From assembly GCA_021205455.1 (NCBI GenBank), contig JAJPXL010000126.1:1-56564 (forward strand): a stretch of DNA of 56,564 nt, read 5' to 3'. The notes beneath the pieces were generated by a model. It saw nothing but the letters and a program-made list of their open reading frames with translations, did not search any database and had not been told where the DNA came from. This stretch comes from Clostridiales bacterium (GTDB taxonomy: Bacteria > Bacillota > Clostridia > Oscillospirales > Oscillospiraceae). Shown piece by piece: positions 30,928 to 51,424 of the stretch (its first letter is position 1; the number at the start of each line of letters is the position of its first letter). The position numbers and the translations under genes were made by a program.

Positions 30928-31869
30928 TCAGAACGCCCTCCTGTGAAGCACAGTGGGGTCGATATGGTGAATGTCCAGCGAACCGGTGCGGTTCAGATAG
31001 GTGCGCAGCAGAGCGGTGCTCTGCCGAATCCACTCCGTCACGCCGTCCTTGCCGCCCTTGCGCAGCGCCTTCATCACCGCCCGGGCGCTGCACACCAGGT
31101 CGGCGCCCAGGGCCAGGGCCTTGAAGGCCTCTGCGCCGGTGTCAATGCCGCAGTCCACAATGATGGTCATGTCCTCCCCCACCGCGTTCCGGATTTCCGT
31201 CAGCAGCATCACCGGGGGAACGGCATAGTCCATAATGCTGTGATGGTGGGACAGCAGGATGTGGCGCACCCCCGCCTTTTGGCAGTTCACCGCGTCGCTG
31301 ACGCTGAGTACGCCCTTCACCACCAGGGGAACATGAAGCTGGTTCACGGCCTCCGCCAGCTCCTCCACGCTCTTTGGCCCGAACAGAGCCCCCTCCTTGG
31401 GGTCGCAGTCGTAGCCGCCGGTTTTCTTGCTGTAGGCGTGGTCCAGGTCGGTGGCGACTGCCACGCAGCCCAGTTTCTCCGCCCGCTTGGCCTCCCCCAG
31501 GAAGCGGGCGCTGTCCTGGTAGGGCTTGATGACCTTGACGGTTTTCGCCCCCAGGGCGACGCACTGGGCGACATCCTCCTCCGGCTGGAAGCCGCCCAGC
31601 CAAATCACCGTATTGGCCTCCGCCGCTGCCTGGGCCTCCTGCAAGAGGGCGTTCTCCCCCAGCATCGGATAGCCGCCGAAGGCCCCCAGCATGATGGGGG
31701 TATCCAGGCGAAGGCCGAAGGCGTCCGCCTCGGTGCTGGCCAGGCCGGAGCCCACCAGCCGCATTTCAATGAGCAGGGAGTTCAGGTATTGCCGGGTGAT
31801 GGCATCCGAGCCCCCCGTCATCCGATCCAGATAGGCGTCAAACGCATTGGCCGATGTGTCATTGCTCAT
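30928..31869 (-). CDS. FMN-dependent alpha-hydroxy-acid oxidising protein relative, altered active site
   Basis: A 313-residue TIM-barrel protein like the LldD/glycolate-oxidase family. FMN-site features remain: LGAFGGYPM near residue 62, the Lys in PLVVKGVLS (Lys185), and IIVDCGIDTGAEAFKALALGAD near 240. The catalytic stretch S-N-H-G-G-R of the family is changed to SHHHSIMD (207-214): a His is there but the GGR segment with the substrate-binding Arg is lost. It may be an isomerase-like or non-oxidase member. The start at 31869 has AGGAGG upstream. It follows the large lipoprotein gene at 99 bp and is probably on the same transcript. Confidence 0.75.
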   Translation of the reverse strand: MSNDTSANAFDAYLDRMTGGSDAITRQYLNSLLIEMRLVGSGLASTEADAFGLRLDTPIMLGAFGGYPMLGENALLQEAQAAAEANTVIWLGGFQPEEDVAQCVALGAKTVKVIKPYQDSARFLGEAKRAEKLGCVAVATDLDHAYSKKTGGYDCDPKEGALFGPKSVEELAEAVNQLHVPLVVKGVLSVSDAVNCQKAGVRHILLSHHHSIMDYAVPPVMLLTEIRNAVGEDMTIIVDCGIDTGAEAFKALALGADLVCSARAVMKALRKGGKDGVTEWIRQSTALLRTYLNRTGSLDIHHIDPTVLHRRAF

Positions 31870-31968: not shown

Positions 31969-34305
31969 TTACCCGCCGAAGCCGGTGTCGCCGGAATCCT
32001 CGCCGGTTTGCGGCTCCTCAGTGGTGAAGCCGATGGTACGGTTGGTCAGGCCGGGGGAGACGGTGGCGCTGTTCAGCTCCTCATCCGTGGGCAGATACCA
32101 CATGGTCACAACGCCGTCCTCGCCGGTGAATCCGGCCACAGTGTTGGCCTCCGGGAGGTGGAGGGTGCCGACGATGGCGTCATCCACCGGGACGGTCTCA
32201 TCAGAGCCTTCCTCCGTCCAGAGGGAACCCTCCGCAGTAACGGACAGCGTACCCCGCACATAGGCGGCGCGAATGGCTACCCACTGGCTGGTAGCGCCGA
32301 TGGTGTTGGCGTCCTTCCAGTAGATGTAAATGTCGCCGGGATAGATGGCGTCGGCATCCTCCCCGCTGACGCTGGAGGAACCATTCTCGGAGTCAAAAGT
32401 GATTTCCTCGCCGTTGCCGTCGGTGTAGGTCGCGCCGTCAGCATCCGTATAGTATACCACAGCGTAGGTGCCTTCCGTGCCGTAAGCGACAGCCGTCTCT
32501 ACCACAGTGGTCTTGACCTGGGCAACGGTGGTGCTGCCGGTTTTCGCCAGCAGCTGCACGGTCTGACCCTCAAGTCCGGTCAGGCTCTCGGCCAGGCTAT
32601 AGGCGGCGTCGGCATAGCTCTCACACTCTCCGGAGTAGAGGGCATGGGCGTTCCACGCCCAGCCGCTGTCCGTCTCATAGACGGCGGCCTGGCCGTTGAT
32701 TTCAAAGGTGGCCTCCTCGGCGGTCAGCTGATAGTTGTTCACATAGACCTCGCCGGCGTCCACGACAGCTTTCAGCCCATCGGCGGCGCTGCCGCCCTCG
32801 AAATAGACGTCGAACTGGCTGTCGGAGAGCTTCAAATCGGCCTCGTTCTCAATGGTCGCCAGGGTGTAATACTCAGAGGCGTAGTTTTCAAAACCGTCAA
32901 AGTTATAGCCGGTGTACTGGGCGGTGATGTCCCCGGCGGTGCCGTGGAGCGCCATATAAATCAGATAGCACTGATAGTCCAGGAAGATGGAGCGGGTCTC
33001 CCCGGCGTCCAGGGTGGCCTGGGCCATGGTCACAGCGTCGGACAGCTCGTTATAGAGGTCGGCGCTGATCCACTGCTTCCCGGCCTCCACATCGCTGCCG
33101 TCTTCGCTGATCACGGTGCTGTCCAGCTTCTCCTGGGCGTAGGCGATGGCGGTCTCCAGGAAGGCGACGGCGCTGTCATTGCTGGTGAAGCCCAGGGGCT
33201 TGCCGGTGGAGGTGGCGTATTCGCTGACCGGTACCAGCCACATACTAACCGTATAGTCCTCATTGCCGTTCAGGCCAAAGAACTTCACAAAGTTGGAGTA
33301 GCCGCCGCTGCGGTTAGAGGCGGAATAGGTGGTGTTCGGGCCGTTCATGGCGTCCGGGTAGACCACGCCGTCCATGGTGTAATACTGGTGGTCTACGCCG
33401 TCAGTGAACACGCCGCTGACCTCAGTGGCCCGTACAAAGTACCAGCTGCCATCCGTTGCCAGATAGTACATGGCGCAGTCGCCGGACTGGATGGTTTCAT
33501 CAAAATGGTCGGCGGGGATGTTGTGGAAAATCTCCTGATCCACACTGCCAAATTCCTTTTCCAGCAGGGTGGCGTACTTCTCAGGGTAGTCGATGGTGTC
33601 GATGTACATACCCACGTCGATGGTGTAGGTGCCGTCCTCGTTCTCCACCAGCTCGGTCACGCCCACGGCGAGATACTCGGTGGACTCAATGCGGTCAGCG
33701 TAGCCGTCGCCGTCATCGTCGTAGAGCAGGGTTTCAGAGCCGTTGGAGGTCTCGCTCTTCAACATCTCCGTGGCAGCCTCCGCATAGCTTACCTCCAGGA
33801 TGGTGGCTGCATAGCCGGAGCCAATGGACCAGGTGCCGTCCTCGTTTTTCGTCATCCAGGTGGACTCATTGACGGTGAAGCCCTCCGGATACTGTTCGTC
33901 AAATTCCTCCTCCGTGGTGGGCACCTGAGCGCCGTTGACATAGCAGTTCCCGGCAGAGATGATTGCGGCCACGCCCTCGGCGGAGCTGCCCTCCTGATAG
34001 TAGGAAGCGTATACCTCGTTGACGACGCTCATGGTGTTGTCGTCCTCATCGGCATCCTCCTCGGTGCCCTTGATGACGGACTTGGGGAAGGTGTTCGTCC
34101 CTGTCTCAGTCTCCTCCACATCGGTGGAGGAGGATTCCGCTTCTGTGCCGGACTCGCTTTCCGCTGCGCTGGATGCCGCAGTAGAGCTTTCAGCGGCGGA
34201 GCTGCCGCCCTCCTCAGAGGTGCTGCCGCCGCAGGCGGCCAGGGACAGCATCATGACCGCAGCCAGAAGGAACGCGGTCAGTGTATTGAGCTTCTTGTTC
34301 TTCAT
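31969..34305 (-). CDS. Large surface lipoprotein with an internal tandem duplication
   Basis: A 778-residue secreted lipoprotein of unknown function. Signal peptide with lipobox LSLAAC (Cys25), then a Ser/Glu/Ala-rich linker (26-98). Two copies of a module of about 270 residues follow: copy 1 near 99-378 and copy 2 near 499-765, seen by pairs such as YYQEGSSAEGVAAIISAGNCYVN / YFEGGSAADGLKAVVDAGEVYVN (20-residue cores) and VSMWLVPVSEY / VTMWYLPTDEE with LGFTS / IGFTT. The linker 379-455 looks like a FIVAR-type helical segment; DDDGDGYADRIE (196-207) is like a calcium loop. The start at 34305 is the signal peptide's. Its promoter carries the shared palindrome at 34394. Confidence 0.83.
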   Translation of the reverse strand: MKNKKLNTLTAFLLAAVMMLSLAACGGSTSEEGGSSAAESSTAASSAAESESGTEAESSSTDVEETETGTNTFPKSVIKGTEEDADEDDNTMSVVNEVYASYYQEGSSAEGVAAIISAGNCYVNGAQVPTTEEEFDEQYPEGFTVNESTWMTKNEDGTWSIGSGYAATILEVSYAEAATEMLKSETSNGSETLLYDDDGDGYADRIESTEYLAVGVTELVENEDGTYTIDVGMYIDTIDYPEKYATLLEKEFGSVDQEIFHNIPADHFDETIQSGDCAMYYLATDGSWYFVRATEVSGVFTDGVDHQYYTMDGVVYPDAMNGPNTTYSASNRSGGYSNFVKFFGLNGNEDYTVSMWLVPVSEYATSTGKPLGFTSNDSAVAFLETAIAYAQEKLDSTVISEDGSDVEAGKQWISADLYNELSDAVTMAQATLDAGETRSIFLDYQCYLIYMALHGTAGDITAQYTGYNFDGFENYASEYYTLATIENEADLKLSDSQFDVYFEGGSAADGLKAVVDAGEVYVNNYQLTAEEATFEINGQAAVYETDSGWAWNAHALYSGECESYADAAYSLAESLTGLEGQTVQLLAKTGSTTVAQVKTTVVETAVAYGTEGTYAVVYYTDADGATYTDGNGEEITFDSENGSSSVSGEDADAIYPGDIYIYWKDANTIGATSQWVAIRAAYVRGTLSVTAEGSLWTEEGSDETVPVDDAIVGTLHLPEANTVAGFTGEDGVVTMWYLPTDEELNSATVSPGLTNRTIGFTTEEPQTGEDSGDTGFGG

Positions 34306-34393
34306 GTCTGAATTCTCCTTTTGATTGGATAAGTTGTTTGTACTGCGCTCCGGTCCGGGCAGAGCGGCAGTTATCCTGGTTTGAATCAAAGAT

Positions 34394-34445
34394 TAAATCG
34401 CGATTTACTAATTGGAAGTATACCAGCATCCGGCAAACAATTCAA
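34394..34445 (-). promoter_or_regulatory. Promoter with TAAATC-GC-GATTTA operator (site 1)
   Basis: Minus strand TTGAAT (34440-34445), 17 bp, TATACT (34417-34422). A perfect 14-bp palindrome TAAATCGCGATTTA (34394-34407) begins 9 bp downstream of the -10 box, over the expected start of transcription. The same motif is at 37374 and 40717. Confidence 0.85.
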
Positions 34446-34482
34446 TCGACATTTTGGACAAATAATTTATCAAAATTTTGTG

Positions 34483-34534
34483 GAAAAAGCCCAACGCCCC
34501 ACAGCGCAGGAAGGGTATCCTGCGCTGTGGGGCG
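34483..34534 (-). terminator. Terminator of the GH3 glycosidase gene
   Basis: CGCCCCACAGCGCAGG arm pairs with CCTGCGCTGTGGGGCG across a 9-nt loop (34495-34534); on the minus strand TTGGGCTTTTT follows. Confidence 0.85.
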
Positions 34535-34583
34535 CATCAAGGTCCTCTATTCCGTTTGTACGCTGCCTGGGGCAGTCGCCTGC

Positions 34584-36224
34584 TTACAGATGGGTATCCA
34601 TCAGGCCGCAGAAGGCGTCCACCGGGGAGACCCCCTTAAAGGGGCTGCGGCCCATCAGCTTGTCCAGCGCGGCCTCGATCATGGGCCGGTGGCAGCTGTA
34701 GGCGTTGATATAAGTTTTCACACGGGGCACGTCCTGGAGGTGGTAGGGGTTGGCGAAGGAGATAAACACGGAGGGCTCCTCCAGGGGGTGGCGGGGCACG
34801 TCCAGGGCGTGCTTTTTCGCCCAGAACAGCCGCACCGCCGTCTGGTTGGAGGCGTGCTCACAGTTGGCCAGGTACAGCGACAGACGGCCGGCTGGCAGGT
34901 CGGCTGTGCCGTGCATCTCCTCCTGGTCGATGTCAAACCGCTCCGTCTGGAAGCCTGCGGCCTGCAAATACTCCTCCGCGATGGCGGTCATGCTGCCGTC
35001 CACAGTGTTGTCGTTGCCGAAGGTGAAGATGCGAATAAGGGGGTATTTCTCCGGGGTGATGGGGAGGCAGTCCTGGTTGTTCTTCACCAGGGTGACGCAC
35101 TTGTCGGCGCACTCCCGCTGCCACTCCTTGGCCTGGGGCAGCATCTTGCAGGTGGGCTGCCGGAAGGCCACCTTCGCCTTCAGCGCCAGGATACGGGTCA
35201 CCGCCTCATCCAGCCGCTGCTGGGTCAGCATTCCGCTGTCCAGGGCGTCCAGGATGTACTGGTAGTCCTCATAGAAGCCGGTGGTGAAGACCAGCATATC
35301 GCACCCGGCCATGACGGCGGTGGGGATGGCCTGCTTCCGGGGCATGGCCTGGGTGAAGCCGCTCATAATGGTGGCGTCGGTGGTGATGACGCCGTTGAAG
35401 CCGAACTTCTCCCGCAGCACGCCGGTCAGAAGCTCCTTGGACAGGGAGCCGGGCAGGCAGTCCGCAAAGGTCAGCGATGGGTTGATGTCCATCTCCACGT
35501 TGGGCTGGACGATGTGGCCCACCATAATGCTCATCAGGCCGTCCTCAATAAGCTGCTGATAGATGGCGCCATAGCTGGCGTACCAGTCCTCGGCGGAGAG
35601 GCTATTGTAGGTGGGGTGCAGGTGCTGGTCCCGGAAGTCCACGCCGTCGCCGGGGTAGTGCTTGGCGCAGGCCGCCATGCCGTAGCTTTGCAGCGTCTTC
35701 ACATACTGGGAGCACTTTGCCCGCACCTTGTCCGTGTCAGAGCCGCAGGAGCGGACGTTGATGATGGGGTTGCGATAGTTCAGGTCCAGGTCGCAGACCG
35801 GGGAGAAGGTCCAGTTGATGCCGGCACTCTGCCCCTCCACCGCGCAGACGGTGGCAAACTTCTCCATCACGCCCAGGTCGTCCGTGGCGGCGGGGGCCAT
35901 GGGCCAGCCGAAGAAGGTGCCGTCAGAGATGCCGCCGGAGCCGCCCTCCTCCAGGTTGGCGGCCTTCAGCAGGGGGATCTTGGCGCACTTGTCCAGCGGA
36001 GCAAAGTGCTGCCGGATGGCCTCCGCCGGTTCCGGGCGGTACAGGATGCCGCCGATGCAGTAGTCTGTCACCAGCGTCTGAAGCTCCTCGGCGCCGTAGT
36101 CTCCCCCCATCACGCAGAACAGCTGACCGGCCTTTTCCCGGTTCGTCAGCCCGGCCAGGGTGTCCGCGACCCACTGGCACTGCTCCTCGCTCAGGCAGAA
36201 GGGTTTTGCAGAAAGATTGATCAT
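34584..36224 (-). CDS. Glycoside hydrolase family 3, NagZ-like beta-N-acetylhexosaminidase
   Basis: A 546-residue enzyme without signal peptide, so cytosolic. The GH3 barrel (about 20-340) has AKHYPGDGVDFRDQHLHPTYN (KH at 188-189, with the histidine-loop used by NagZ-type enzymes) and GVITTDATIMSGF with the likely nucleophile Asp283. The rest (about 370-546) is a C-terminal alpha/beta domain. NagZ enzymes remove GlcNAc from cell-wall or chitin fragments; the closest substrate is inferred. GTGAGGAG precedes the ATG. It is divergent from tetR (270 bp) and its leader has a degenerate copy (10/14) of the shared operator at 36254-36267; no good promoter boxes were found. Confidence 0.87.
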   Translation of the reverse strand: MINLSAKPFCLSEEQCQWVADTLAGLTNREKAGQLFCVMGGDYGAEELQTLVTDYCIGGILYRPEPAEAIRQHFAPLDKCAKIPLLKAANLEEGGSGGISDGTFFGWPMAPAATDDLGVMEKFATVCAVEGQSAGINWTFSPVCDLDLNYRNPIINVRSCGSDTDKVRAKCSQYVKTLQSYGMAACAKHYPGDGVDFRDQHLHPTYNSLSAEDWYASYGAIYQQLIEDGLMSIMVGHIVQPNVEMDINPSLTFADCLPGSLSKELLTGVLREKFGFNGVITTDATIMSGFTQAMPRKQAIPTAVMAGCDMLVFTTGFYEDYQYILDALDSGMLTQQRLDEAVTRILALKAKVAFRQPTCKMLPQAKEWQRECADKCVTLVKNNQDCLPITPEKYPLIRIFTFGNDNTVDGSMTAIAEEYLQAAGFQTERFDIDQEEMHGTADLPAGRLSLYLANCEHASNQTAVRLFWAKKHALDVPRHPLEEPSVFISFANPYHLQDVPRVKTYINAYSCHRPMIEAALDKLMGRSPFKGVSPVDAFCGLMDTHL

Positions 36225-36366
36225 GGTAGGTTTCTCCTCACTTTACATCAAATGGAATTGCGATTTTCCTTTGCAGCAAAAGCCAAATGTTCAACGCGCA
36301 TCACGCTTGGCCCAACGAAAAACGGCGAGAATTACCAAAAGTCTGAAGCATTCTCGAATTGAAGTA

Positions 36367-36395
36367 TTGACATATGCAATTCTATCGTTTAAACT
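36367..36395 (+). promoter_or_regulatory. Promoter of the tetR-type gene
   Basis: TTGACA (36367-36372), 17 bp, TAAACT (36390-36395). A degenerate operator-like stretch, CAATTCACGTTTAT (9 of 14 matches), lies at 36424-36437. The region 36225-36494 is AT-rich compared with its surroundings. Confidence 0.65.
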
Positions 36396-36494
36396 TGAAG
36401 CAATTAAACCTGACTCTAGACCGCAATTCACGTTTATTATAAGAGGTTTGTCAGGATATGTCAACATACTTATGGAAGGCTGTGGAACAAAATT

Positions 36495-37208
36495 ATGATC
36501 AAGCAAAAGCTGCCCCACGAAGTCAAATCAGAAGAGACGAAGCAGAAAATTCTCACCGCTACGGAGAAGATGCTGTCCCAATACGATTTTAAATACCTGA
36601 CTGTGCGCAATCTCTGTGAAGAGGCTGGCGTGGCATACGGCTCCTTCTACCACCATTTTACAAGCAAGGAGAATCTGCTGTTTATCTACACCGGCAACCT
36701 CTACCAGGTGGCCCGCCGGGAGAATCCCCTGCCGGACTGGGTCAACCCGACGGACTATATCGAGTGCATCCTGTGGCACACCATCGTATACGGGCAGTTC
36801 TGTGAGATGCTGGGGAAGGACCTGACCAAATATCTGTACCAGAACTGCCCTCAGGACCTGTTCGCCGAAACCTATGCCCAGGAGATCATCCCCATCATCA
36901 ATGACGCCAAGCAGCGGGGTATGCTGGACCCGGGCCGTGAACGGCCCTATAACCGGCCGCCGGAGGTGCTGCTGGCCAAGGATGTCGAAATCGTGGAAAA
37001 GGGCACCGTGGTGTGGTGGAGCTGCTATTCCAAGGAGGACGCCGAGCCCCTCCATGAGACGCTGGAGCATCTGAGCTTCAATATGCTGTATTCCTACTGC
37101 TCCGAGCAGTACCGGGCCACAGACCACCTGCATATGCTGCTGACGGAGCGGGAGCAGTTCCCCGGCAGCATCACCATCCGCCCCATCAGCGCGGCGCAGG
37201 AATCCTGA
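36495..37208 (+). CDS. TetR/AcrR family transcriptional regulator
   Basis: A 237-residue regulator. The helix-turn-helix is LTVRNLCEEAGVAYGSFYHHF (residues about 36-56; written here as two halves LTVRNLCEEAG and VAYGSFYHHF), followed by TSKENLLF, typical of TetR proteins. The C-terminal 170 residues should bind an unknown ligand. The ribosome site is poor, suggesting low expression. It is divergent from the GH3 gene and upstream of the Gfo/MATE operon. It is the only DNA-binding regulator in the 31-51 kb block, so it is the best candidate to bind the repeated TAAATC-NN-GATTTA palindromes. Confidence 0.9.
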   Translation: MIKQKLPHEVKSEETKQKILTATEKMLSQYDFKYLTVRNLCEEAGVAYGSFYHHFTSKENLLFIYTGNLYQVARRENPLPDWVNPTDYIECILWHTIVYGQFCEMLGKDLTKYLYQNCPQDLFAETYAQEIIPIINDAKQRGMLDPGRERPYNRPPEVLLAKDVEIVEKGTVVWWSCYSKEDAEPLHETLEHLSFNMLYSYCSEQYRATDHLHMLLTEREQFPGSITIRPISAAQES

Positions 37209-37224
37209 GCCAAACTTCCCCGAA

Positions 37225-37262
37225 GGAGGGGCCGACCTCAGGTCGGCCCCTCCTCTTTTTTG
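37225..37262 (+). terminator. Terminator of the tetR-type gene
   Basis: GGAGGGGCCGACC / GGTCGGCCCCTCC with TCA loop, then TCTTTTTT. Confidence 0.92.
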
Positions 37263-37333
37263 CGCCCTTTTGGATAATTTCTACAAAGCGCTTTGTCGAG
37301 ATTGCCTAAAAACGAAAAACAGAGAAAAGGCCC

Positions 37334-37387
37334 TTGACAAAAGTGGAAAATTGGTGTACTGTATTGGTTGAATTAAATCACGATTTA
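37334..37387 (+). promoter_or_regulatory. Promoter with TAAATC-AC-GATTTA operator (site 2)
   Basis: TTGACA (37334-37339), 17 bp, TACTGT (37357-37362); the palindrome (37374-37387) starts 11 bp after the -10 box. Drives the Gfo/Idh/MocA-MATE operon. Confidence 0.86.
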
Positions 37388-37471
37388 GTACATTATTCAA
37401 ACATGATGTCACGTTCCGTCTGCGGGCAGACCATGCCCCTGCCCGGCCGCCGGAACAGGAAAGGAGCAAAC

Positions 37472-38479
37472 ATGAATATCGGTGTGTGTGGATGCGGCAC
37501 CATCGCATCCTGGATTTCTGATATTTTGAATCAATTAAACAGCGAAACCATCGTCAAATACGGCGTGGCCTCCGCCTTTGCGGCGGAGTGCCAGCCCTTT
37601 GCCGACAAATGGGGCTGGAAAAAGGTGTACGAAAGCTATGACGCCCTGATGCAGGACCCCGCCATCGACCTGGTTTACATCGCCGTCCCCAACTCGTTCC
37701 ACTATGAGGTCTGCCTGAAAGCCCTGCACTACGGGAAGAACGTAGTCTGCGAAAAGCCCTTCGCCGTCAATGAGAAGCAGGCGGCGGAGATGGTGGCCCT
37801 GGCGGAGGAGAAGGGCGTGTTCCTCTCCGAGGCGCTGTGGCCCTCCTTCCTGCCCTCCCGCCAGCTCATTGACGATGAGATTGCCTCTGGCAGCATCGGC
37901 CAGGTCACCGGAGCGGAGTTCGTCTCCCTGTCCTACGTCCTGTTCCTGGAGCGGGTCAAGCGGCTGGATCTGGGCGGCGGCGCGCTGCTGGACATGGGCC
38001 CCTATATGCTGGGGCGGATGACCGACCACTTCGGCCTGGATATCGCCTCCATTGAGGGCACCTTTGAGCACCTGGACACCGGCGTGGACAGCCGGGACGA
38101 TTATACCGTCACCTACAGGGACGGCAGGACTGTCCATTGCAGAAGCACCATCGACACCCCCCATGAGGAGGGCATGGAGTACGGGCAAATCAACGGCACC
38201 AAGGGTTCCATCTGGTTTGACAGCATCTCCAACCCCCAGAACATCCGCGTGCTGGACCTTGAGGGCAACCCGGTGAAGCAAATCGCGGTGCCGCCCATGC
38301 TTCACGGCACGGAGGTGCCCTTCATCGCCGGTTATGAATACGAGTTCCTGGCCTTTGAGCGGGCGCTGCGGGAGGGACGCACGGAGTGCCCCGAGGCCAC
38401 CCACGCCCAGACGCTGACCATCGCTCATGTGATGACCGAGCTGCGCAGGCAGGCCAACGTGGTGTTCCCCTTTGAATGA
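37472..38479 (+). CDS. Gfo/Idh/MocA family NAD(P)-dependent oxidoreductase
   Basis: A 335-residue enzyme, probably oxidising or reducing a sugar or sugar derivative. The N-terminal Rossmann fold begins NIGVCGCGTIASWI (GxGxxA type) and contains YIAVPNSFHYEV near 75; the family hallmark EKPFAVNEKQA is near 97-107 (Lys is catalytic). The C-terminal Gfo_Idh_MocA domain (about 130-335) includes GGGALLDMGPYML. AAAGGAGC precedes the ATG 37472. It is the first gene of a unit with a MATE exporter, under the shared operator. The substrate is unknown. Confidence 0.9.
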   Translation: MNIGVCGCGTIASWISDILNQLNSETIVKYGVASAFAAECQPFADKWGWKKVYESYDALMQDPAIDLVYIAVPNSFHYEVCLKALHYGKNVVCEKPFAVNEKQAAEMVALAEEKGVFLSEALWPSFLPSRQLIDDEIASGSIGQVTGAEFVSLSYVLFLERVKRLDLGGGALLDMGPYMLGRMTDHFGLDIASIEGTFEHLDTGVDSRDDYTVTYRDGRTVHCRSTIDTPHEEGMEYGQINGTKGSIWFDSISNPQNIRVLDLEGNPVKQIAVPPMLHGTEVPFIAGYEYEFLAFERALREGRTECPEATHAQTLTIAHVMTELRRQANVVFPFE

Positions 38480-38516
38480 GGCACGGAATGACGAATAGAA
38501 AGAAGGTTGCTAAGCT

Positions 38517-39914
38517 ATGGCTAACGCGGTAGGGAAGAAGGTCGGGCGCGACCTGACCAGCGGGCCAATCATGCCGTCCCTGTTGTCGTTCGCGCTGCCG
38601 ATTGTGATTACGGACGTGATTCAGCAGCTGTACTCCATGGTCGACCTGATGGTGATCGGGCAATTTGTGGGCAATGTGGGCACCGTAGGCGTGAATACGG
38701 GCGGCGAGATTGCGGACTTCCTGATGCCGGTGGCGACCGCCTTCGCGGCTGCCGGACAGATTTATGTGGCCCAGCTGGCCGGCGCGAGAAAATATGAGGA
38801 CCAGAAACGGGCCATCGGCACGTTCATCACCCTGATGCTGTGCGCGGCGCTGGCCTTCATGGTGCTGACCATCGCCCTGACGAACCCCATCCTGAACCTG
38901 CTGAACTGCCCGGAGGAATCCCTCAGCGAAGCGCGGAACTATATGATCATCACCGCCGTAGGCCTGCCGTTCATCTATGGCTACAACGCGGTGTGCGGCG
39001 TGCTGCGGGGCATGGGCGAGAGCCAGCGCCCCCTGGTGTTCATCATCATTGCGGCGGTGGTGAATATCTTCCTGGATATCCTGCTGGTGGCAGTGTTCCA
39101 GCTCAGCGCCGCCGGTACGGCGTTGGCTACGGTGTTCTCCCAGGTGGCGGCGTTCTCCGCCTCCTTCGTGTATATGTATAGGCACAAGGAGACCTTTGAG
39201 TTTGAGCTGAAGCTGTCCTACTTCAAATGCGACCCCCACCACGCCAAGGTGCTGCTGAAGCTGGGCCTGCCCCAGGCCCTCCGCTCCGTGCTGGTGCGGG
39301 CCTCCATGCTCTGGGTCAACGCCAACGTGAACGCCTGCGGCGCTGTCGCCTCCGGCACCAACGGCATCGGCAACAAGCTGCAAAAGTTCCTGGAGATTTT
39401 CAGCTCCAGTATGTCCCAGGCCAGCGCCGCCATGGTGGGCCAAAACCTGGGCGCCAAGAAGCAGGACCGGGCGAAAAAGACGGTGCACTCCGCGCTGCTG
39501 TTCAGCCTGTGCTTCGCCGTCTGCATCAGCCTGCTGATCTCCTTCTTCCCGACCCAGGTGTTCGGCATCTTCACCACGGACGCGGATGTGAAGGCCTTCG
39601 GCGTGTACTATATCCAAATGCTGTGCGTACATATCGTCGTCTCGTCCATCACCAGCTCCTATCAGTCCATGGTGATCGGCTCGGGCAACGCCACGCTGAA
39701 CTTTATCATCGGCATTCTGGACGGCGTCATCTGCAAAATCGGCCTGAGCCTGCTGTTTGTGAACGTCATCTTCCAGGTCACGGCGGAGACGGACTGGTTC
39801 ATGACTGCGCTGGGCTATTTCTGGGGCACCGGCCTGTCCCGTGTGCTGCCGGCGCTGGTGTGCATCGTCTACTTCTACTCCGGCCGCTGGAAGAAGAGGT
39901 CTTTGCTGTCATAA
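38517..39914 (+). CDS. MATE family efflux transporter
   Basis: A 465-residue protein with 12 predicted membrane helices, a Na+- or H+-driven exporter. It starts LTSGPIMPSLLSFALPIVITDVIQQLYSMVD, typical of MATE N-termini, with VGVNTGGEI near 60 and the second half repeating the pattern at SMSQASAAMVGQNLGAKKQDRA near 305. The ribosome site is modest (AGAAGG). It lies 37 bp after the Gfo-type gene. In a uptake/degradation cluster it may expel a toxic by-product or the natural compound itself; this is inference. Confidence 0.92.
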   Translation: MANAVGKKVGRDLTSGPIMPSLLSFALPIVITDVIQQLYSMVDLMVIGQFVGNVGTVGVNTGGEIADFLMPVATAFAAAGQIYVAQLAGARKYEDQKRAIGTFITLMLCAALAFMVLTIALTNPILNLLNCPEESLSEARNYMIITAVGLPFIYGYNAVCGVLRGMGESQRPLVFIIIAAVVNIFLDILLVAVFQLSAAGTALATVFSQVAAFSASFVYMYRHKETFEFELKLSYFKCDPHHAKVLLKLGLPQALRSVLVRASMLWVNANVNACGAVASGTNGIGNKLQKFLEIFSSSMSQASAAMVGQNLGAKKQDRAKKTVHSALLFSLCFAVCISLLISFFPTQVFGIFTTDADVKAFGVYYIQMLCVHIVVSSITSSYQSMVIGSGNATLNFIIGILDGVICKIGLSLLFVNVIFQVTAETDWFMTALGYFWGTGLSRVLPALVCIVYFYSGRWKKRSLLS

Positions 39915-39927
39915 CGGAGGAGTCGCG

Positions 39928-40509
39928 GTGAAAAAGAAATCCTATCGGGAACGCTATTTTGAGGACAATCAGCCCGTGCGGGAGGTGGCCAACAACCGGA
40001 AGGGCTACCGCATCGTCTACCGGTATGTGGGCCTTTGGGTCGCCTGGCGCAGCGAGAAGTGGCCGCTGAAAACCGTCAAATGGGCCTTCGCCCTGGCGGA
40101 GCTGGCCAGCATCTGCCTGTACCTGACCTGCGCCAGGGTGGATACGCCGCTGAACCGCTGCCAGCTGGCCAACGGGTTTGGCGTGCTGTCCGTCGTCCCG
40201 TGGATTTTGGAGCTGTCCGGGGTCGTGCGCTTCCTGCTGTCCAAAGCCTACGCCAAGGAGATGGACAGCGCGGAGATCGACCAGTCCATTCGATATGGCG
40301 CCGTCCTGCGGGCGGTGCTTCTGGGGCTGTCCCTGCTGTGCAGCGTTGTCAACGTCCTGATTCACGGGACGGCAACGGTGCTGGACGCCGGTATGGCGCT
40401 GGGCATCCTCGCCAGCATTGCCCTGTCCGCTGCCGTTTGGCGGGGGTACCGCAGTCTGCTGCTGGACACCTATCACAACGTGGACGGCGCGCCGGGCAGC
40501 CGCTGCTGA
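39928..40509 (+). CDS. Hypothetical integral membrane protein
   Basis: A 193-residue protein starting at GTG (39928) with AACGGAGGAG upstream; the MATE stop is 13 bp before it, so it is part of the same operon. Residues 1-45 are charged and cytosolic (KKKSYRERYFEDNQ), followed by about four hydrophobic helices (near 52-75, 85-108, 128-150 and 155-175). It was not recognised as a known family. The coupling to MATE suggests an accessory membrane function. A good terminator follows. Confidence 0.7.
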   Translation: MKKKSYRERYFEDNQPVREVANNRKGYRIVYRYVGLWVAWRSEKWPLKTVKWAFALAELASICLYLTCARVDTPLNRCQLANGFGVLSVVPWILELSGVVRFLLSKAYAKEMDSAEIDQSIRYGAVLRAVLLGLSLLCSVVNVLIHGTATVLDAGMALGILASIALSAAVWRGYRSLLLDTYHNVDGAPGSRC

Positions 40510-40541
40510 AGCCGCCGTGGCTTGTTCGAACGGCGAAGGAG

Positions 40542-40587
40542 ACAGGGCTGTTGCGTACCAGGTTCGCTGCGTGACAGCCCTGTTTTG
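40542..40587 (+). terminator. Terminator of the Gfo-MATE operon
   Basis: ACAGGGCTGT / ACAGCCCTGT with a 22-nt loop, then TTTT. The remainder of the 314-bp gap 40510-40823 holds the next promoter, operator and an A-rich stretch. Confidence 0.78.
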
Positions 40588-40678
40588 CTGCCGTTGACTG
40601 CTTTGCGGCGCGGACGCCGCGGCAGCAGCCTGTGCTTTTTGCACAAAAAACAAAAAAGATGTTTGTCTATTCTGTCAA

Positions 40679-40730
40679 TTGATTTTTGGCCGCGGCGCGT
40701 TTATACTCTCAATTAGTAAATCGTGATTTA
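40679..40730 (+). promoter_or_regulatory. Promoter with TAAATC-GT-GATTTA operator (site 3)
   Basis: TTGATT (40679-40684), 17 bp, TATACT (40702-40707); palindrome 40717-40730 begins 9 bp after the -10 box. A further half-site CAAATCACGA occurs at 40741-40750, 24 bp from the first. Drives the ABC importer operon. Confidence 0.86.
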
Positions 40731-40823
40731 ATTTGTGTTCCAAATCACGAACGCAGTTCTCTCCCGCGGCATGGGCGGGAGGGAACACCTCTCAAACGTT
40801 CCATTTCTTAAAGGAGGACAAAA

Positions 40824-42503
40824 ATGAAAAACGCAACAAAACGATTCCTGACTCTGCTCCTGGCCCTGGCGATGGTGTGCTCGCTGGTGGCCTGCGGCGG
40901 CTCCAGCTCCGGCGGCAGCAGCTCCGGTGACAGCAGCGCCTCGTCCGGCGACAGCAGCTCCGCTTCCTCTGAGGAAGCTTCCACCGGCACGGTCACTTCC
41001 GACGTGAACAACGACGCCGACGGCAACGGCCGCGCGGACAAGGTGGTTTACGCCAGCACCCAGGCCTATTCCAGCCTGACCCCCTTCCTGAACCCCAAGA
41101 CCTACACCGCCGCCGTCTTTGAGACCCTGGGCCGCTATCACGACTACGGCAGTGACTTCGAGGGTCTGCTGATGGAGAGCTGGGAGCAGACCGACGAGCT
41201 AACCTATGTGGTCACCCTGTACGACAACATCTACGACTCCGAGGGCAACCACATCACCGCCAGCGACGTAGTGTTCAGCTTTGAGACGGTCCGCACCGAG
41301 GGCGAGATCTCCCAGACCTCCGTCATTGAGACCGTCACCGCCCTGGACGACTACACCGTCCAGTTCACCTGGGCCGACACCCCCATCACCGGCGCGTTTG
41401 AGCAGCTGATGAGCCTGGTCAACATCGTCAGCCAGGAAGCCTATGAAGCCTCCGGCGACGGCATGGCCTCCAGCCCTGTGGGCACCGGGCCCTATGTGGT
41501 CACCAGCTGGACCAGCGGCGTCAGCATGACCCTGGAGGTCAATGAGAACTACTGGGCCACCGATGAGCAAATCAAGTTTGACACCCAGAAGCAGAACGTG
41601 GACGTTATTGAGATTCAGACCATCTCCGAGACCTCTCAGATCACCATGGCCCTGCAGACCGGCGAAATCGACATGACCGAGGACCTGGCCGCCACCGACG
41701 CCTCCAACTTCCAGGAGGGCGGCGCTTACTCCGACAGCTACACGGTGCTGGAGCAGGCCGATTACGCCCCTAAGTCCATCCTGGTGAACGTCAGCGAGTC
41801 CGCCAAGACCAGCGACTACTATCTCCGCCAGGCCATCATGTGCGCCATCGACAACGAGTACATCGCCTCCGTGGTGAACGGCGGCTCCAACCAGGCGGTC
41901 TACGGCCTGGGCGCGCCCTCCAACTCCGACTATGACGAGGAAGCCTGGAAGTCCTACCTGCCGGAGCGCTCTGTGGAGCAGGCCAAGGAATATCTGGCCC
42001 AGTCCGCCTATCCCGACGGCACCACCATCACCCTGCTGCTGATCGACGGCGGCATCAATAACGACATTGCCGAAATCATTCAGAACGAGTTGGCTCAAAT
42101 CGGCATCGATGTCGTTGTTGAGGCGGAGACCTTCGGCAACTGGCTGACCAACAAGGGCGACGAGACCGCCTGGGACCTGATTATCTCCGAGCTGTCCTCC
42201 ACCAACTGCTGCGCCGCCATCTTCCAGAACGCCTTTGACACCCGCGACGGCAGCTCCAACGAGATCTTCTCCACCGACGAGACCCTCCAGGCGCTTCTGG
42301 AAGCCTGCATCTTCGTTGACAACCACACCCAGGAGAGCGTCAACGCCTTCCAGCAGTATCTGACCGAGCAGGCCTATGTGATTCCCGGCCTGGTGCAAAT
42401 CAACTACAACGTCTATGACAGCTCCCTGATTTCCGAAATCGTCTACAGCGGCGAGGGCGCGGTCATTCCTCAGGCATTCACCTACATCGGCGTGGCTGAG
42501 TAA
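40824..42503 (+). CDS. Peptide/oligosaccharide ABC transporter substrate-binding lipoprotein (family 5)
   Basis: A 559-residue lipoprotein: signal peptide with SLVAC lipobox (Cys24), a Ser/Gly-rich linker (25-60), then a type-C binding fold resembling DppA/OppA (SBP_bac_5). Blocks such as VVFSFETVRTEG, SSPVGTGPYVVTSW near 210 and LRQAIMCAIDNEYIA near 325 are in family order. AAAGGAGGACAA gives a very strong ribosome site, fitting the need for excess binding protein. The ligand is unknown; this family binds peptides, but also chitobiose, muropeptides, opines and other oligomers. It opens a 7-gene operon (importer, deacetylase, hydrolase). Confidence 0.92.
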   Translation: MKNATKRFLTLLLALAMVCSLVACGGSSSGGSSSGDSSASSGDSSSASSEEASTGTVTSDVNNDADGNGRADKVVYASTQAYSSLTPFLNPKTYTAAVFETLGRYHDYGSDFEGLLMESWEQTDELTYVVTLYDNIYDSEGNHITASDVVFSFETVRTEGEISQTSVIETVTALDDYTVQFTWADTPITGAFEQLMSLVNIVSQEAYEASGDGMASSPVGTGPYVVTSWTSGVSMTLEVNENYWATDEQIKFDTQKQNVDVIEIQTISETSQITMALQTGEIDMTEDLAATDASNFQEGGAYSDSYTVLEQADYAPKSILVNVSESAKTSDYYLRQAIMCAIDNEYIASVVNGGSNQAVYGLGAPSNSDYDEEAWKSYLPERSVEQAKEYLAQSAYPDGTTITLLLIDGGINNDIAEIIQNELAQIGIDVVVEAETFGNWLTNKGDETAWDLIISELSSTNCCAAIFQNAFDTRDGSSNEIFSTDETLQALLEACIFVDNHTQESVNAFQQYLTEQAYVIPGLVQINYNVYDSSLISEIVYSGEGAVIPQAFTYIGVAE

Positions 42504-42539
42504 TCCCAATCCTTCCCTACCCTATTCCCAATAGCATCC

Positions 42540-42638
42540 GGGGCTGCCCTGTCCGCCCGGAAGCGATGACCCTATCCGCCATCACGCAAGCAGGCGTCCG
42601 CTGCGATTGAGTCAACCGCTCCGGAGGAGGGCAGCCCC
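42540..42638 (+). other. Long-range GC stem between binding-protein and permease genes
   Basis: GGGGCTGCCC (42540-42549) can pair with GGGCAGCCCC (42629-42638), enclosing about 80 nt. No U-run. Such stems after a binding-protein gene often set its excess over the permeases. Confidence 0.55.
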
Positions 42639-42700
42639 CCTCACGTTTAGAAGCATCCATTCATTTTACTCCATAAAGGAAAACGGGTGAATTATTTATT

Positions 42701-43636
42701 ATGTGGAGATATATTTTAAAACGACTGGTCATGATGATTTTCGTGGTCCTCGGTGTGGCCATCGTAATCTTCTCGATCATGTACTTTATCCCCGGCAACC
42801 CGGCGCAAATCATCCTGGGCGCCAACGCCTCGGAGGAGTCGATTCAGGAGCTGTATGTGAGCATGGGGCTGGACCAGCCCTACCTGACCCAGCTGGGCAC
42901 CTTCCTGTCCGACACCTTCCTGCACTTTGACTTGGGCACCTCCTATCAGTCCAAAATCGCGGTGGCTACAGAAATCGCCGAACGGTTCCCCCGGACGCTG
43001 ATCATCGCCGCCTGCTCCCTGATCGTCACCACTGCGGTGGGCATCCCTCTGGGCATTGTGGCCGCCACCCATCAGGGCAAGTGGCAGGACAATGTGGCCA
43101 CGCTGATTTCCATGCTGGGCCTGTCCCTCCCCGGCTTCTGGCTGGCGCTGATGCTGGTCAACTGGCTGTCTGTGGGGCTGGGCATCCTGCCCGCCTACGG
43201 CGTGGGCACCTGGAAGCACTATGTAATTCCCATCATCTCCAACTCCGTCATCGGTATTGCCAATATCGGCCGCCAATGCCGGGTGGACGTGCTGGAGGTC
43301 ATCCATTCGGACTACGTCACCACCGCCCGGGCCAAGGGCGTCAGCAATCACAACGTCACTTATAAGCACGTTATGCCCAACGCGCTGATTCCGCTGATCA
43401 CCTCCCTGGGCTCCGTGTTCGCCTCCTCTCTGGGCGGCACAGTGGTCATCGAGTCCATCTTCGTGATTCCCGGCATCGGCCTGTATATGTCCAACGGTAT
43501 CCTGAACCTGGACTATCCCGCTGTGCGGGGCGGCGTCGTAGTCATTGCCATCGCGTTCAGCTTTGTCATGCTGCTGGTGGACCTGATCTACGCATACGTT
43601 GACCCCCGCATCAAGGCTCAGTACGAAGGAAAGTAA
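42701..43636 (+). CDS. ABC transporter permease, DppB type
   Basis: A 311-residue inner-membrane permease with six helices. The N-terminal VVLGVAIVIFSIMYFIPGNPA is standard for DppB/OppB, and the ATPase-contact loop DYVTTARAKGVSNHNVTYKH (about 205-225) is the EAA-like motif of the family. It lies after the long stem and is followed at 15 bp by its DppC-type partner. AAAGGA lies about 24 bp before the ATG, farther than usual, so translation may be lower than that of the binding protein. Confidence 0.93.
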   Translation: MWRYILKRLVMMIFVVLGVAIVIFSIMYFIPGNPAQIILGANASEESIQELYVSMGLDQPYLTQLGTFLSDTFLHFDLGTSYQSKIAVATEIAERFPRTLIIAACSLIVTTAVGIPLGIVAATHQGKWQDNVATLISMLGLSLPGFWLALMLVNWLSVGLGILPAYGVGTWKHYVIPIISNSVIGIANIGRQCRVDVLEVIHSDYVTTARAKGVSNHNVTYKHVMPNALIPLITSLGSVFASSLGGTVVIESIFVIPGIGLYMSNGILNLDYPAVRGGVVVIAIAFSFVMLLVDLIYAYVDPRIKAQYEGK

Positions 43637-43650
43637 AGGGGGAGAGGAAA

Positions 43651-44529
43651 ATGACAAAAACAGCAACAACTGCGGCCCCCAAGGCCAAGCGGAACAGCCA
43701 GACCAAAGAGGTGCTGGGGCGCTTCACCAAGAGCCCGCTGGCAATGGTCGGCACGGCAATCTTCGTCATCTTCGTGGTGCTGGCCATTCTGGCGCCCTAT
43801 ATCTGCAAATATGCCTACGATGAGATGACCACTGACATCCTGGCGGGGTGCTCCCTGGAGCATTTCTTCGGCACAGACAAGTTCGGCCGGGATTTGTTCA
43901 GCCGTATCCTCTACGGCGGCCGGTACTCCATCTTCATGGGCGTGGTGGCCACCCTTCTGGGCACGGCCATCGGCATGGTGCTGGGCGCCATCGCCGGCTT
44001 CTTCGGCCAGGTGGCGGATAACGTGGTCATGCGTATCTGCGACATCTTCCAGGCCATCCCCGGCATCCTGCTGTCCATGGTGATTTCCACCGTGCTGGGT
44101 ACCGGCGTCATGAACACCATCATCGCCCTGTCCATCGGCGGCATTGCAGGCAACGCCCGCATGATGCGCAGCCTGATTCTCCAGGTGCGCAACAACGATT
44201 ACATCGAGGCCGCCGGCTCCATCAACTGCTCCAGCCCCCGCATCATCTTCCGCCACATCCTGCCCAACACCTTCGGCCCCATCCTGGTGGGCTGCACCAT
44301 GGGCATCGGCGGCACCATCATGCAGGCGGCCAGCCTGAGCTTCCTGGGCCTGGGCATCAAGGCGCCCATTCCTGAGTGGGGCGCTCTGCTGAATGAGGGC
44401 AAGGACTACTTCACCATGTATCCCCATCTGCTGATTTTCCCCGGCCTGGCCATCGGCCTGCTGAGCCTGGCGACCTGCCTGATGGGCGACGGCCTGCGGG
44501 ATGCAATGGACCCCAGACTGAAGAAGTGA
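43651..44529 (+). CDS. ABC transporter permease, DppC type
   Basis: A 292-residue permease with six helices and the N-terminal soluble extension typical of DppC (KRNSQTKEVLGRFTKSPLAMVG). HFFGTDKFGRDLFSRILYGG near 70-90 is the family signature, and the loop YIEAAGSINCSSPRIIFRHI near 190-210 is the EAA motif. AGAGGAAA precedes the ATG. It pairs with the upstream DppB-type permease to form the transport channel of the cluster's importer. Confidence 0.95.
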   Translation: MTKTATTAAPKAKRNSQTKEVLGRFTKSPLAMVGTAIFVIFVVLAILAPYICKYAYDEMTTDILAGCSLEHFFGTDKFGRDLFSRILYGGRYSIFMGVVATLLGTAIGMVLGAIAGFFGQVADNVVMRICDIFQAIPGILLSMVISTVLGTGVMNTIIALSIGGIAGNARMMRSLILQVRNNDYIEAAGSINCSSPRIIFRHILPNTFGPILVGCTMGIGGTIMQAASLSFLGLGIKAPIPEWGALLNEGKDYFTMYPHLLIFPGLAIGLLSLATCLMGDGLRDAMDPRLKK

Positions 44530-44543
44530 CCGAGGTGTGAAAA

Positions 44544-45545
44544 ATGGAAAATAAGGTTGAACGAAAGAACCAGGAGCATTTCCTGGAGGTCAAAGACCTG
44601 ACGGTATACTACACCGTGTCCAAGGTGGACACCAAGGCGGTCAACGGCGTTTCCTTCACTCTGGAGAAGGGGCAGACCCTGGGGCTGGTGGGCGAGACCG
44701 GCGCAGGCAAGACCACCATCGCCAAGGCCATCCTGGGCATCCTGCCCGTCCCCCCTGCCCGGCTCATCAGCGGCGAGATTCACTTTGACGGACAGACGCT
44801 GACGGAGTTGCCGGAGGCCGAAATGCTGAAGATTCGGGGCGACAAAATCGCCATGATCTTCCAGGACCCCATGACCGCGCTGAACCCCGTCATCACCGTG
44901 GGCGACCAGATCTCCGAGGTCATCAGCCTGCATAACAGCGTCTCCAAGGCGGAGGCCAAGAAGCAGGCCGGGGAGATGCTGGAGATGGTAGGCATCCCCG
45001 CCTCCCGCTACGGGGAGTATCCCCACCAGTTCTCCGGCGGCATGAAGCAGCGGGTGGTCATCGCCATGGCGTTGGCCTGCGACCCCGACCTGCTGCTGGC
45101 GGACGAGCCCACCACCGCCCTGGACGTGACCATTCAGGCCCAGGTGCTGGATATGATTCGGAATTTGCAGCAGAAGAACAACACCTCCATGATCCTCATC
45201 ACCCACGACCTGGGCGTCGTGGCCCAGACCTGCGACAACGTGGCCGTGGTCTACGCCGGTGAGATCATTGAGAGCGGCACGAAAGAGGACATCTTCGACC
45301 ATCCCACCCATCCCTATACCGTCGGCCTGTTCGGGGCCATCCCCAAGCTGGATGATGAGGAGGAGTGGCTCCATCCCATCGAAGGGCTTCCCCCCGACCC
45401 CACCCAGCTGCCGGAGGGCTGCGCGTTCAGCCCCCGCTGTCCCTACGCCAGCGCGGAGTGCCGCCAGGGTAAGATTCCCACCCGGGAGCTGTCCCCCGGC
45501 CACTTCTGCCGCTGCGTGAAGACTGAGAAGAAGGAGGAGCAGTAA
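44544..45545 (+). CDS. ABC transporter ATP-binding protein, DppD type
   Basis: A 333-residue ATPase. Walker [13 protein letters not shown] near residue 52, signature FSGGMKQR near 165, Walker [13 protein letters not shown] near 188 and the H-loop ITHDLGVV. The C-terminal oligopeptide-transport domain (about 245-325) includes [15 protein letters not shown], a cysteine cluster that can bind an iron-sulfur centre or structural metal in this family. Its stop is one base from the start of the DppF-type gene, so the pair is translationally coupled. Confidence 0.95.
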
Positions 45546-45546
45546 G

Positions 45547-46506
45547 ATGAGCACCCCTTGTATCGAGGTGAAAAACCTCCAGAAATATTTTAAAGTCCGG
45601 AACGGCTTTCTGCACGCCACGGACGATGTCTCCTTCAAAATTGAAAAGGGCAAGACCATGGGCATTGTGGGCGAATCCGGCTGCGGCAAGTCCACCCTGG
45701 GCCGCACCATCATCCATATGCACGAGAGCACCGGCGGCCAGATTTTATACAACGGCGAGGATGTGACCAAGGTCAGCCATCATGGGCTGAAGGAGCTGCG
45801 CACCCATATGCAGATGGTATTCCAGGACCCCTATTCCTCCCTGAACCCCCGGTTCACGGTGGAGCAGACCATTCGGGAGCCCTTGCAGCTGACCCATAAG
45901 TACACCAAGGCCCAGATTGACGAGGAAGTGACCCAGCTCATGGAGCTGTGCGGCGTGGAGGAGCGTCTGCGCCTGGCCTATCCCCATGAGATGGACGGCG
46001 GCCGCCGCCAGCGTGTGGGCATCGCCCGGGCATTGGCGCTGAATCCAGAGTTCATCGTCTGCGACGAGCCGGTGTCCGCCCTGGACGTGTCCATCCAGGC
46101 CCAGGTGCTGAACCTGCTGAAGGAGCTGCAGCAGAAGCGGGGCCTGACCTATATGTTCGTCACCCACGACCTGTCGGTGGTGCGGCACATCTCCAATGAC
46201 ATCGGCGTTATGTACCTGGGCCAGATGGTGGAAACCAGCGAGTCCAAGGAGCTGTTTGTCAAGCCGCTGCACCCCTACACCAAGGCGCTGCTCTCCGCCA
46301 TCCCCTCCACCAACATCCACTCCAAGCAGGAGCGCATCATCCTGAAAGGGGAGATCACCTCTCCCATCAACCCCAAGCCCGGATGCCGGTTCGCGGCCCG
46401 CTGCCCCTATGCCACGCCGGAGTGCAGCCAGCCCCAGCATTTGGAGGAGGTTCTGCCCAATCACTTCGTCTCCTGCCACCGGTGCAAGGAAATCAACAAC
46501 CTGTGA
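45547..46506 (+). CDS. ABC transporter ATP-binding protein, DppF type, variant signature
   Basis: A 319-residue ATPase with Walker A GESGCGKSTLGR near residue 42, Walker B FIVCDEPVSALD near 170 and FVTHDLSVV. The signature is MDGGRRQRVGIARAL: Asp replaces the usual Ser of S-G-G-Q, which lowers or changes the catalytic role of that half in other ABC pairs. The C-terminal domain has CRFAARCPYATPECSQ. It completes the importer and is followed after 33 bp by the deacetylase gene. Confidence 0.94.
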   Translation: MSTPCIEVKNLQKYFKVRNGFLHATDDVSFKIEKGKTMGIVGESGCGKSTLGRTIIHMHESTGGQILYNGEDVTKVSHHGLKELRTHMQMVFQDPYSSLNPRFTVEQTIREPLQLTHKYTKAQIDEEVTQLMELCGVEERLRLAYPHEMDGGRRQRVGIARALALNPEFIVCDEPVSALDVSIQAQVLNLLKELQQKRGLTYMFVTHDLSVVRHISNDIGVMYLGQMVETSESKELFVKPLHPYTKALLSAIPSTNIHSKQERIILKGEITSPINPKPGCRFAARCPYATPECSQPQHLEEVLPNHFVSCHRCKEINNL

Positions 46507-46539
46507 GCGGCCTTGTACGGGCATAAGAAAGGCAACAGA

Positions 46540-47433: not shown

Positions 47434-47457
47434 CCGCAGCAGAGGAAAGAGGTACCT

Positions 47458-49176: not shown

Positions 49177-49207
49177 CCTGCCCCCGCATCGCATCAAACC
49201 CCTGACG

Positions 49208-49252
49208 AAAAAGGCTTGCCGAACTCCTGTTGTGTTCGGCAAGCCTTTGTGT
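49208..49252 (+). terminator. Terminator of the importer operon
   Basis: AAAGGCTTGCCGAAC / GTTCGGCAAGCCTTT with a 9-nt loop, then GTGTT; the T-run is short, so some read-through is likely. Confidence 0.8.
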
Positions 49253-49293
49253 TAAACTATACTATATCACGGAAAAGACGAAAGGAACGCGGA

Positions 49294-50598: not shown

Positions 50599-50616
50599 GT
50601 GCAGGAGGTTGAAGCA

Positions 50617-51382: not shown

Positions 51383-51424
51383 AAAACGCATCCGAATCCA
51401 AATGGATTCGGATGCGTTTTTTCG
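51383..51424. terminator. Bidirectional terminator between convergent genes
   Basis: AAAACGCATCCGAATCCA / TGGATTCGGATGCGTTTT with AA loop; T-runs both ways. It separates the accessory block from the radical SAM operon. Confidence 0.92.

Follow-up and report, generated by a model that had tools for sequence, protein, structure and literature searches.

Among the described regulators of the TetR family, KstR (Rv3574) of mycobacteria is reported as a repressor of lipid and cholesterol genes, with a 14-bp palindrome, TAGAAC(N2)GTTCTA, that was found by conservation (PMC1995591). Other members bind as a dimer of dimers. Operators of 28 and 22 bp are given for QacR and CprB (PMC4150764), a 20-bp site with overlapping palindromes is described for DarR, a mycobacterial regulator that binds cyclic di-AMP (c-di-AMP) (PMC10636190), and two-dimer operators of 22–32 bp are known from these two sources (PMC4150764; PMC10636190). 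In glycoside hydrolase family 3 (GH3), a His/Asp acid/base dyad instead of Glu/Asp is presented as a feature of the beta-glycoside phosphorylases (PMC8950772). Here we describe a TetR-type system in a 56,564-nt stretch of an uncultured, gut-type Clostridiales bacterium of the Oscillospiraceae (assembly GCA_021205455.1, contig JAJPXL010000126.1), referred to below as the window, in which one palindrome, TAAATC-NN-GATTTA, lies at the promoters of three gene units in the neighbourhood of a tetR gene. A preliminary description, made from the letters of this DNA, had read these sites as a TetR regulon. That reading is right in essence, and the locus represents a local TetR regulon that is new but familiar in kind.

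Palindromes at three promoters

The palindrome has three exact matches in the window (Table 1), where the sites read TAAATCnnGATTTA, and no further match was found there even with up to two mismatches. Dinucleotide shuffles of the window contained 0.37 matches on average, and none of 100 contained three. The matches stand at exactly the coordinates first reported, and a scan of the whole 2.67 Mb genome (175 contigs), which the preliminary description had suggested, returned the exact palindrome three times, only at these promoters. A single copy with one mismatch (C149:46643) lies within a long open frame, which we take, from reading it by eye, to be IMP dehydrogenase. With up to two mismatches, 32 places were found in the genome against 23 for a reversed control pattern, which is near background.

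All three promoters have 17-bp spacers, and the palindrome begins 9 nt after the -10 box at sites 1 and 3 and 11 nt after it at site 2, as had been described. Calling all of them good sigma-A promoters was generous at site 2, where TTGACA is perfect and the -10 box TACTGT fits the consensus at 3 of 6 positions only, which is why the promoter scan did not list it. With transcription starts predicted from these boxes, the palindromes would span roughly +3 to +16 of each transcript.

The tetR product has a TetR_N helix-turn-helix (PF00440, E 2e-12, 47.1 bits with a cut-off of 24, residues 19–62) and an all-helical fold with DNA-binding and ligand-binding domains, which places it in the family. 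Judged by genome comparison, this protein is very probably the local repressor that binds the palindrome at the three units. In the proposed mechanism, a TetR dimer would bind TAAATC-RY-GATTTA (R-Y, purine–pyrimidine), beginning 9–11 nt after the -10 box and covering the first transcribed bases, and would repress the units running from lipoA to a flavin mononucleotide (FMN)-dependent dehydrogenase, from a Gfo/Idh/MocA oxidoreductase through a MATE transporter to a small protein, and from a solute-binding protein (SBP) and its ABC transporter to an SDR protein. A second dimer would probably sit on a weaker copy 12 bp downstream and strengthen repression, and a small molecule linked to the transported substrate would release TetR.

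Conservation of the sites with tetR

A search of 32 genomes of the genus (E threshold 1e-10) gave a tetR match in 6, and in all 6 the promoters of lipoA, Gfo and SBP each carry an exact copy of the palindrome. Five close genomes are the same records as loci L036–L039 and L043 and were counted once (L and G numbers denote our loci and genomes). Among the 26 genus genomes without a tetR match, 23 have no exact site, G201 and G226 have one each (centre CC/GG) and G210 has two, the only ones with an R-Y centre. The matches in G201 and G226, as well as an additional exact match elsewhere in the tetR-bearing G209 (centre CT/AG), were set aside as lying outside the regulon. In the close group, G210 included, the centre is R-Y in 20 of 20 sites (GT 8, AC 6, AT 5, GC 1). 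The 12 specified bases are invariant at operator 1 in 6 genomes and at operator 2 in 7, and at operator 3 all 14 columns are invariant in 7, in contrast to the 28 nt that follow the second unit described below, which are 43–63% identical without gaps.

Beyond the genus, the exact R-Y pattern was found in 8 of 400 family genomes. Three of these have three sites and are exactly those with the close-group tetR, and five have one or two scattered sites. Conservation beside orthologous tetR genes was observed in five further close genomes and in five distant loci, in one of which (G090) the sites have one or two mismatches. In L040 (TetR 70% identical), lipoA is the sole window gene beside tetR and has the site at its promoter. 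In L041 (61%), sites are located at the MATE promoter and, with two mismatches, at the SBP promoter, and in L042 (58%) at the Gfo promoter and, with two mismatches, at a lipoA-like promoter. In L044 (37%), none of the regulon target genes was matched, and the sole exact site overlaps the promoter of tetR itself, with a one-mismatch copy 35 bp upstream. In G090 (32–34%), TAAATCATGATCTA and TAGATCATGAATTA (one and two mismatches) lie at a distance of 35 bp from each other, in the interval that separates tetR from an SBP-ABC operon, and one more two-mismatch match falls inside the ABC genes of this locus (L060). This genome encodes three tetR paralogues, and the sites occur only beside the one with the recognition helix AYGSFYYHF (AYGSFYHHF in the window); around the other two (AYSSVYHFF and SFGSIQHHY), no match with up to two mismatches was found in the surrounding 14 and 17 kb. 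Common to the five distant loci and the close group are a tetR with AYGSFY(H/Y)HF and the palindrome.

Searches for TetR relatives, own genome included, returned 14 of 200 family genomes (1e-10), 2 of 394 order genomes (1e-25), 9 of 400 family genomes (1e-18) and 1 of 391 class genomes (1e-20). The 11-row TetR profile contains the G090 protein, so the score of G090 in the 400-genome search is not independent. Weaker TetR matches in G070, G147, G193, G196 and G710 belong to 3-kb loci without the palindrome at up to two mismatches, and their recognition helices, not caught by the helix pattern, were not compared. Regarding the scattered family matches, G676, G042 and G174 have one exact R-Y match each. 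In the 9–18 kb around the scattered matches, none of 21 window proteins had a match, save recR in L100, which does not belong to the regulon. Close downstream of the G174 site is a short frame, and a pattern search of 17 kb there gave no TetR-like frame. The two matches in G640 belong to a single stretch that is present twice, in opposite orientations, on one contig, and the match in G100 lies in similar sequence; from a motif read by eye, this sequence presumably codes for a dGTPase-like protein.

Several observations weigh against the TetR protein as the binder. Within the genus, tetR is present or absent along with the targets and the sites; they are inherited together, so co-occurrence there cannot separate the binder from its targets, and the distant loci that do separate them are few, five only. 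In the family scan, G090 has tetR but no exact site, and the exact site of L042 has the centre AA and not R-Y. Furthermore, G210 (61% complete) keeps the Gfo–MATE and SBP units with their sites, and no tetR was detected in it. The homology of the G210 contig to L039 begins exactly at the end of tetR, and tetR may have been lost or the contig may be wrongly joined at an assembly junction. The stretch ahead of this homology (L059, G210:C23, positions 1–167) has a palindromic repeat, GATTGCCGCC...GGCGGCAAT, which was also observed in L036 (519–636).

The joint inheritance and the sites of G210 would agree with an unlinked regulator that binds the palindrome, tetR being a mere bystander in the cluster. 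We consider this improbable. Across differing gene contexts, the constant partner of the palindrome is tetR and not any single target gene, which we take as strong comparative evidence that this protein reads this sequence. In L044 the site stands in front of tetR itself, in G090 the recognition-helix match is found at the site-bearing paralogue, and, leaving G210 aside, exact sites are absent from 23 of the 25 genus genomes that lack tetR, although under a general regulator some should be present. The comparison across close and distant genomes supports the TetR protein as the binder, which the preliminary description had offered as its own assumption. Sequence by itself does not tell whether control is positive or negative, and TetR might bind these sites as an activator or a dual regulator and not as a repressor. 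This is less probable still, since a palindrome that starts 9–11 nt downstream of the -10 box has the position expected to block RNA polymerase, and in L044 it overlaps the spacer and the -10 box (read by eye). Repression by the local TetR protein is the reading that we carry forward.

A composite operator with a 12-bp register

When 26 sites were aligned by the direction of transcription, a second match was observed centred 12 bp downstream, with a mean of 8.27 of 12 positions against 5.69 at the next-best offset. For ten quasi-independent sites, among which the close group is represented by the window's three sites only, the +12 unit matches 58 of 100 non-overlapping positions, compared with 25 ± 4.2 at random downstream offsets, and this score was reached in none of 200,000 random draws of the sites' own downstream offsets. 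At the upstream offset of -12, the primary site necessarily accounts, through overlap, for 19 of the 40 matches, and the score is near background. The operator is longer than the 14-mer, a composite of 26 bp with a weaker copy at +12 bp, and a second half-site pair within an operator of 22–32 bp is present when the ten quasi-independent sites are pooled. A point against the second unit is its weakness at single sites (4–7 of 10). In the window, the three second units are no stronger than most of those of the relatives (6–10, 7–8 and 7–10 of 12 at operators 1 to 3).

The additional half-site noted earlier at 40741–40750 falls in register as a possible third 12-bp unit at +24. It is weak, with 7/12 in the window, 9/12 in L043 and 3 to 6 in five other relatives. 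A tentative and rather doubtful extension would be an array of 12-bp repeats (strong, weaker and sometimes a third), always downstream, on which two or three dimers might line up next to each other along almost the same face of the DNA, with two units 35 bp apart instead in L044 and G090. By our own arithmetic (10.5 bp per turn), a centre spacing of 12 bp sets dimers about 50 degrees apart. The two operator copies of L044 (6393–6441) and L060 (9620–9668) are exactly 35 bp apart, as against 12 bp in the close group. The phased second unit raises a testable question on the packing of TetR-type dimers on DNA.

The palindromes fall within the transcripts, and the SBP leader of the window folds better than its shuffles (z -4.2), and in this fold bases of the palindrome are paired to the extra half-site. 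Pairing of the SBP-leader palindrome to the second or third unit extends over 8–10 bp in 5 of 6 relatives (only 4 in L037). A role of the palindromes as structured RNA within the leaders, in place of or in addition to one as DNA sites, has nonetheless the smallest probability of the alternatives considered here: overlapping inverted repeats give such pairing anyway, with partners that differ between species; the SBP leaders of the relatives range from z -1.3 to -4.2, and the highest scores accompany a distinct GC-rich hairpin farther along the leader; in the window, the lipoA and Gfo leaders hardly differ from background (z -1.8 and -1.5); the 2-nt centre cannot serve as a hairpin loop; and in L044 the site is in the core promoter. 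In view of the expected pairing and the L044 site, we keep the palindromes as DNA sites, beside which an added RNA role may exist at the SBP unit. The GC-rich hairpin of the SBP leader (40756–40786) recurs, in one form or another, in most of the six relatives. Its arms appear by eye to change together, and it is a possible mRNA stabiliser.

The GH3 and tetR promoters stand face to face (36367–36464), with overlapping leaders. The perfect GH3 promoter at 36464 to 36436, both hexamers of which are kept in 6 of 6 genomes, had been overlooked in the preliminary account. Degenerate copies of the palindrome had also been proposed in this region. The one at 36254–36267 in the GH3 leader was dropped, as it is not conserved in a six-genome alignment of the GH3–tetR region, and the 14-mer at 36424–36437 in the tetR leader is itself not conserved there, whereas an overlapping composite at 36405–36430 is, with a score of 16 in 4 of 6 genomes and 15 and 14 in the remaining two. 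Among composites with at least 7 in both units and a sum of at least 16/24, only the three operators and this copy occur in the window. The copy is not significant by shuffling, as a score of 16 also arises in 7% of 2000 shuffled versions of the 270-bp region. Block shuffles of the window (150 bp) contained 1.44 such composites on average over both strands, with at least one in 49% of 300 shuffles; the observed number is 10 with both strands counted, and 8 of these are the three operators. Position and conservation, not shuffling, point weakly to this copy as a real site, and GH3 and tetR may be under weaker control from it. The auto-control suggested earlier is clear in the distant L044, with its site at the tetR promoter, and weak or doubtful in the window.

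Genes of the probable regulon and comparison with known systems

In Table 1, we list the features of the locus. Three units with 14 genes are probably under TetR control. The nine genes of unit 3 would form a single transcript, and operon limits are generally predicted ones; a strong terminator-like stem (51383–51420) stands directly after the SDR gene. Two unit-3 proteins have no Pfam match, and the label of hydrolases comes from weak signs. The start codons of lipoA and the FMN-dependent dehydrogenase were checked. The lipoA product is 86–94% identical in L037, L038, L039 and L043 and 72% beside tetR in L040, while L036 gave distant paralogue matches only. Diverged lipoA-like lipoprotein genes (about 28–31% local identity) were observed next to an operator-bearing promoter in L036 (6486–7811) and L038 (6499–7800); the diverged copy is the only one seen in L036, and L038 has it with the operator on one side and the lipoA orthologue on the other. 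A MATE paralogue (59%) is encoded elsewhere in the genome (G000:C80:22829-24172), on a contig without an operator match at up to two mismatches.

Table 1. Coordinates of operators, promoters and genes in the window.
Feature	Position	Strand	Description
Operator 1, primary palindrome	34394..34407	-	TAAATCGCGATTTA; over start of lipoA–FMN dehydrogenase unit
Operator 2, primary palindrome	37374..37387	+	TAAATCACGATTTA; over start of Gfo–MATE–small protein unit
Operator 3, primary palindrome	40717..40730	+	TAAATCGTGATTTA; over start of SBP-ABC unit
Operator 1, second unit	34382..34395	-	8/12, centre 12 bp downstream
Operator 2, second unit	37386..37399	+	7/12
Operator 3, second unit	40729..40742	+	7/12; 10/12 in L036, L038, L039 and L059
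Possible third 12-bp unit	40741..40754	+	7/12, +24 register; covers half-site 40741–40750
Weak composite copy	36405..36430		8+8 of 24; between face-to-face GH3 and tetR promoters
Promoter 1	34417..34445	-	TTGAAT-17-TATACT, TG ahead of -10
Promoter 2	37334..37362	+	TTGACA-17-TACTGT, weak -10; not listed by promoter scan
Promoter 3	40679..40707	+	TTGATT-17-TATACT
GH3 promoter	36436..36464	-	TTGACA-17-TATAAT, 12/12 consensus (promoter scan)
tetR promoter	36367..36395	+	TTGACA-17-TAAACT (promoter scan)
tetR	36495..37208	+	TetR-family repressor, 237 aa; proposed palindrome binder
lipoA	31969..34305	-	lipoprotein-like, 777 residues after start codon; first gene of unit 1; no Pfam match
FMN-dependent dehydrogenase	30928..31869	-	PF01070; probably in lipoA unit
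Gfo/Idh/MocA oxidoreductase	37472..38479	+	PF01408; unit 2
MATE efflux transporter	38517..39914	+	PF01554; TIGR00797 201.9 bits (cut-off 147.4); unit 2
193-aa protein	39928..40509	+	no Pfam match; conserved with MATE; unit 2
Unit 3, nine genes	40824..51378	+	SBP family 5, two permeases, two ATPases, YdjC-like, two presumed hydrolases, SDR
GH3 enzyme	34584..36224	-	homologue of beta-glucoside phosphorylase 5VQD, phmmer E 2.8e-142; possible fourth target

In the alignment of the GH3 enzyme with 5VQD, KHYPGDGVDFRDQH is matched to KHFPGDGVDYRDQH, with homology over the full length and the His/Asp region kept; residues of this stretch presumably make up the dyad. Among solved structures, the enzyme is closest to the rare beta-glucoside phosphorylase and not to a plain glucosidase. 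As a reasonable guess, the regulon would serve to import and degrade a conjugated compound, which may be glycosylated, and to export a by-product. The 14 genes (ABC uptake, MATE efflux, oxidoreductases, YdjC-like and presumed hydrolases) are grouped as one response, so the inducer, once found, would point to the substrate. The regulator–operator pair is ready for experiment, and the relatives compared here are metagenome-assembled genomes. As a principle, the arrangement is ordinary, in that a TetR repressor would control neighbouring genes.

No published occurrence of the exact operator strings was found, and literature searches for a similar cluster or operator gave nothing relevant. The likeness to KstR lies in the regulon architecture and in a 14-bp palindrome that was likewise found through conservation (PMC1995591). 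The middle bases of the half-site differ (AAC in KstR, ATC here), the window sites do not match the KstR motif TnnAACnnGTTnnA, and the window TetR scores 20.5 bits with the KstR equivalog model NF033703, below its cut-off of 280. As reported for KstR, the kstR promoter carries its site upstream of the -10 box, which the site partly overlaps, and predictions for two genomes gave 16 and 31 instances (PMC1995591); the regulon presented there consists of different genes. The GH3 enzyme resembles BglX/BglP (5VQD; PMC8950772) as a full-length homologue with the KH-PGDGVD-RDQH stretch kept, although its phosphorolytic activity is putative and the operator-like copy at its promoter is weak.

With 26 bp, the composite operator is comparable to the two-dimer operators of 28 and 22 bp given for QacR and CprB. 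For CprB, described as analogous to QacR, the dimers are placed on opposite sides of the DNA, whereas a 12-bp spacing would bring them to nearly one face, by arithmetic only. DarR differs in its 20-bp site and in binding c-di-AMP, and the likeness is one of operator layout, without sequence closeness shown. According to the description of DarR, an imperfect second palindrome overlaps the first and the dimers touch and cover one face, which provides a partial precedent for the 12-bp register proposed here.

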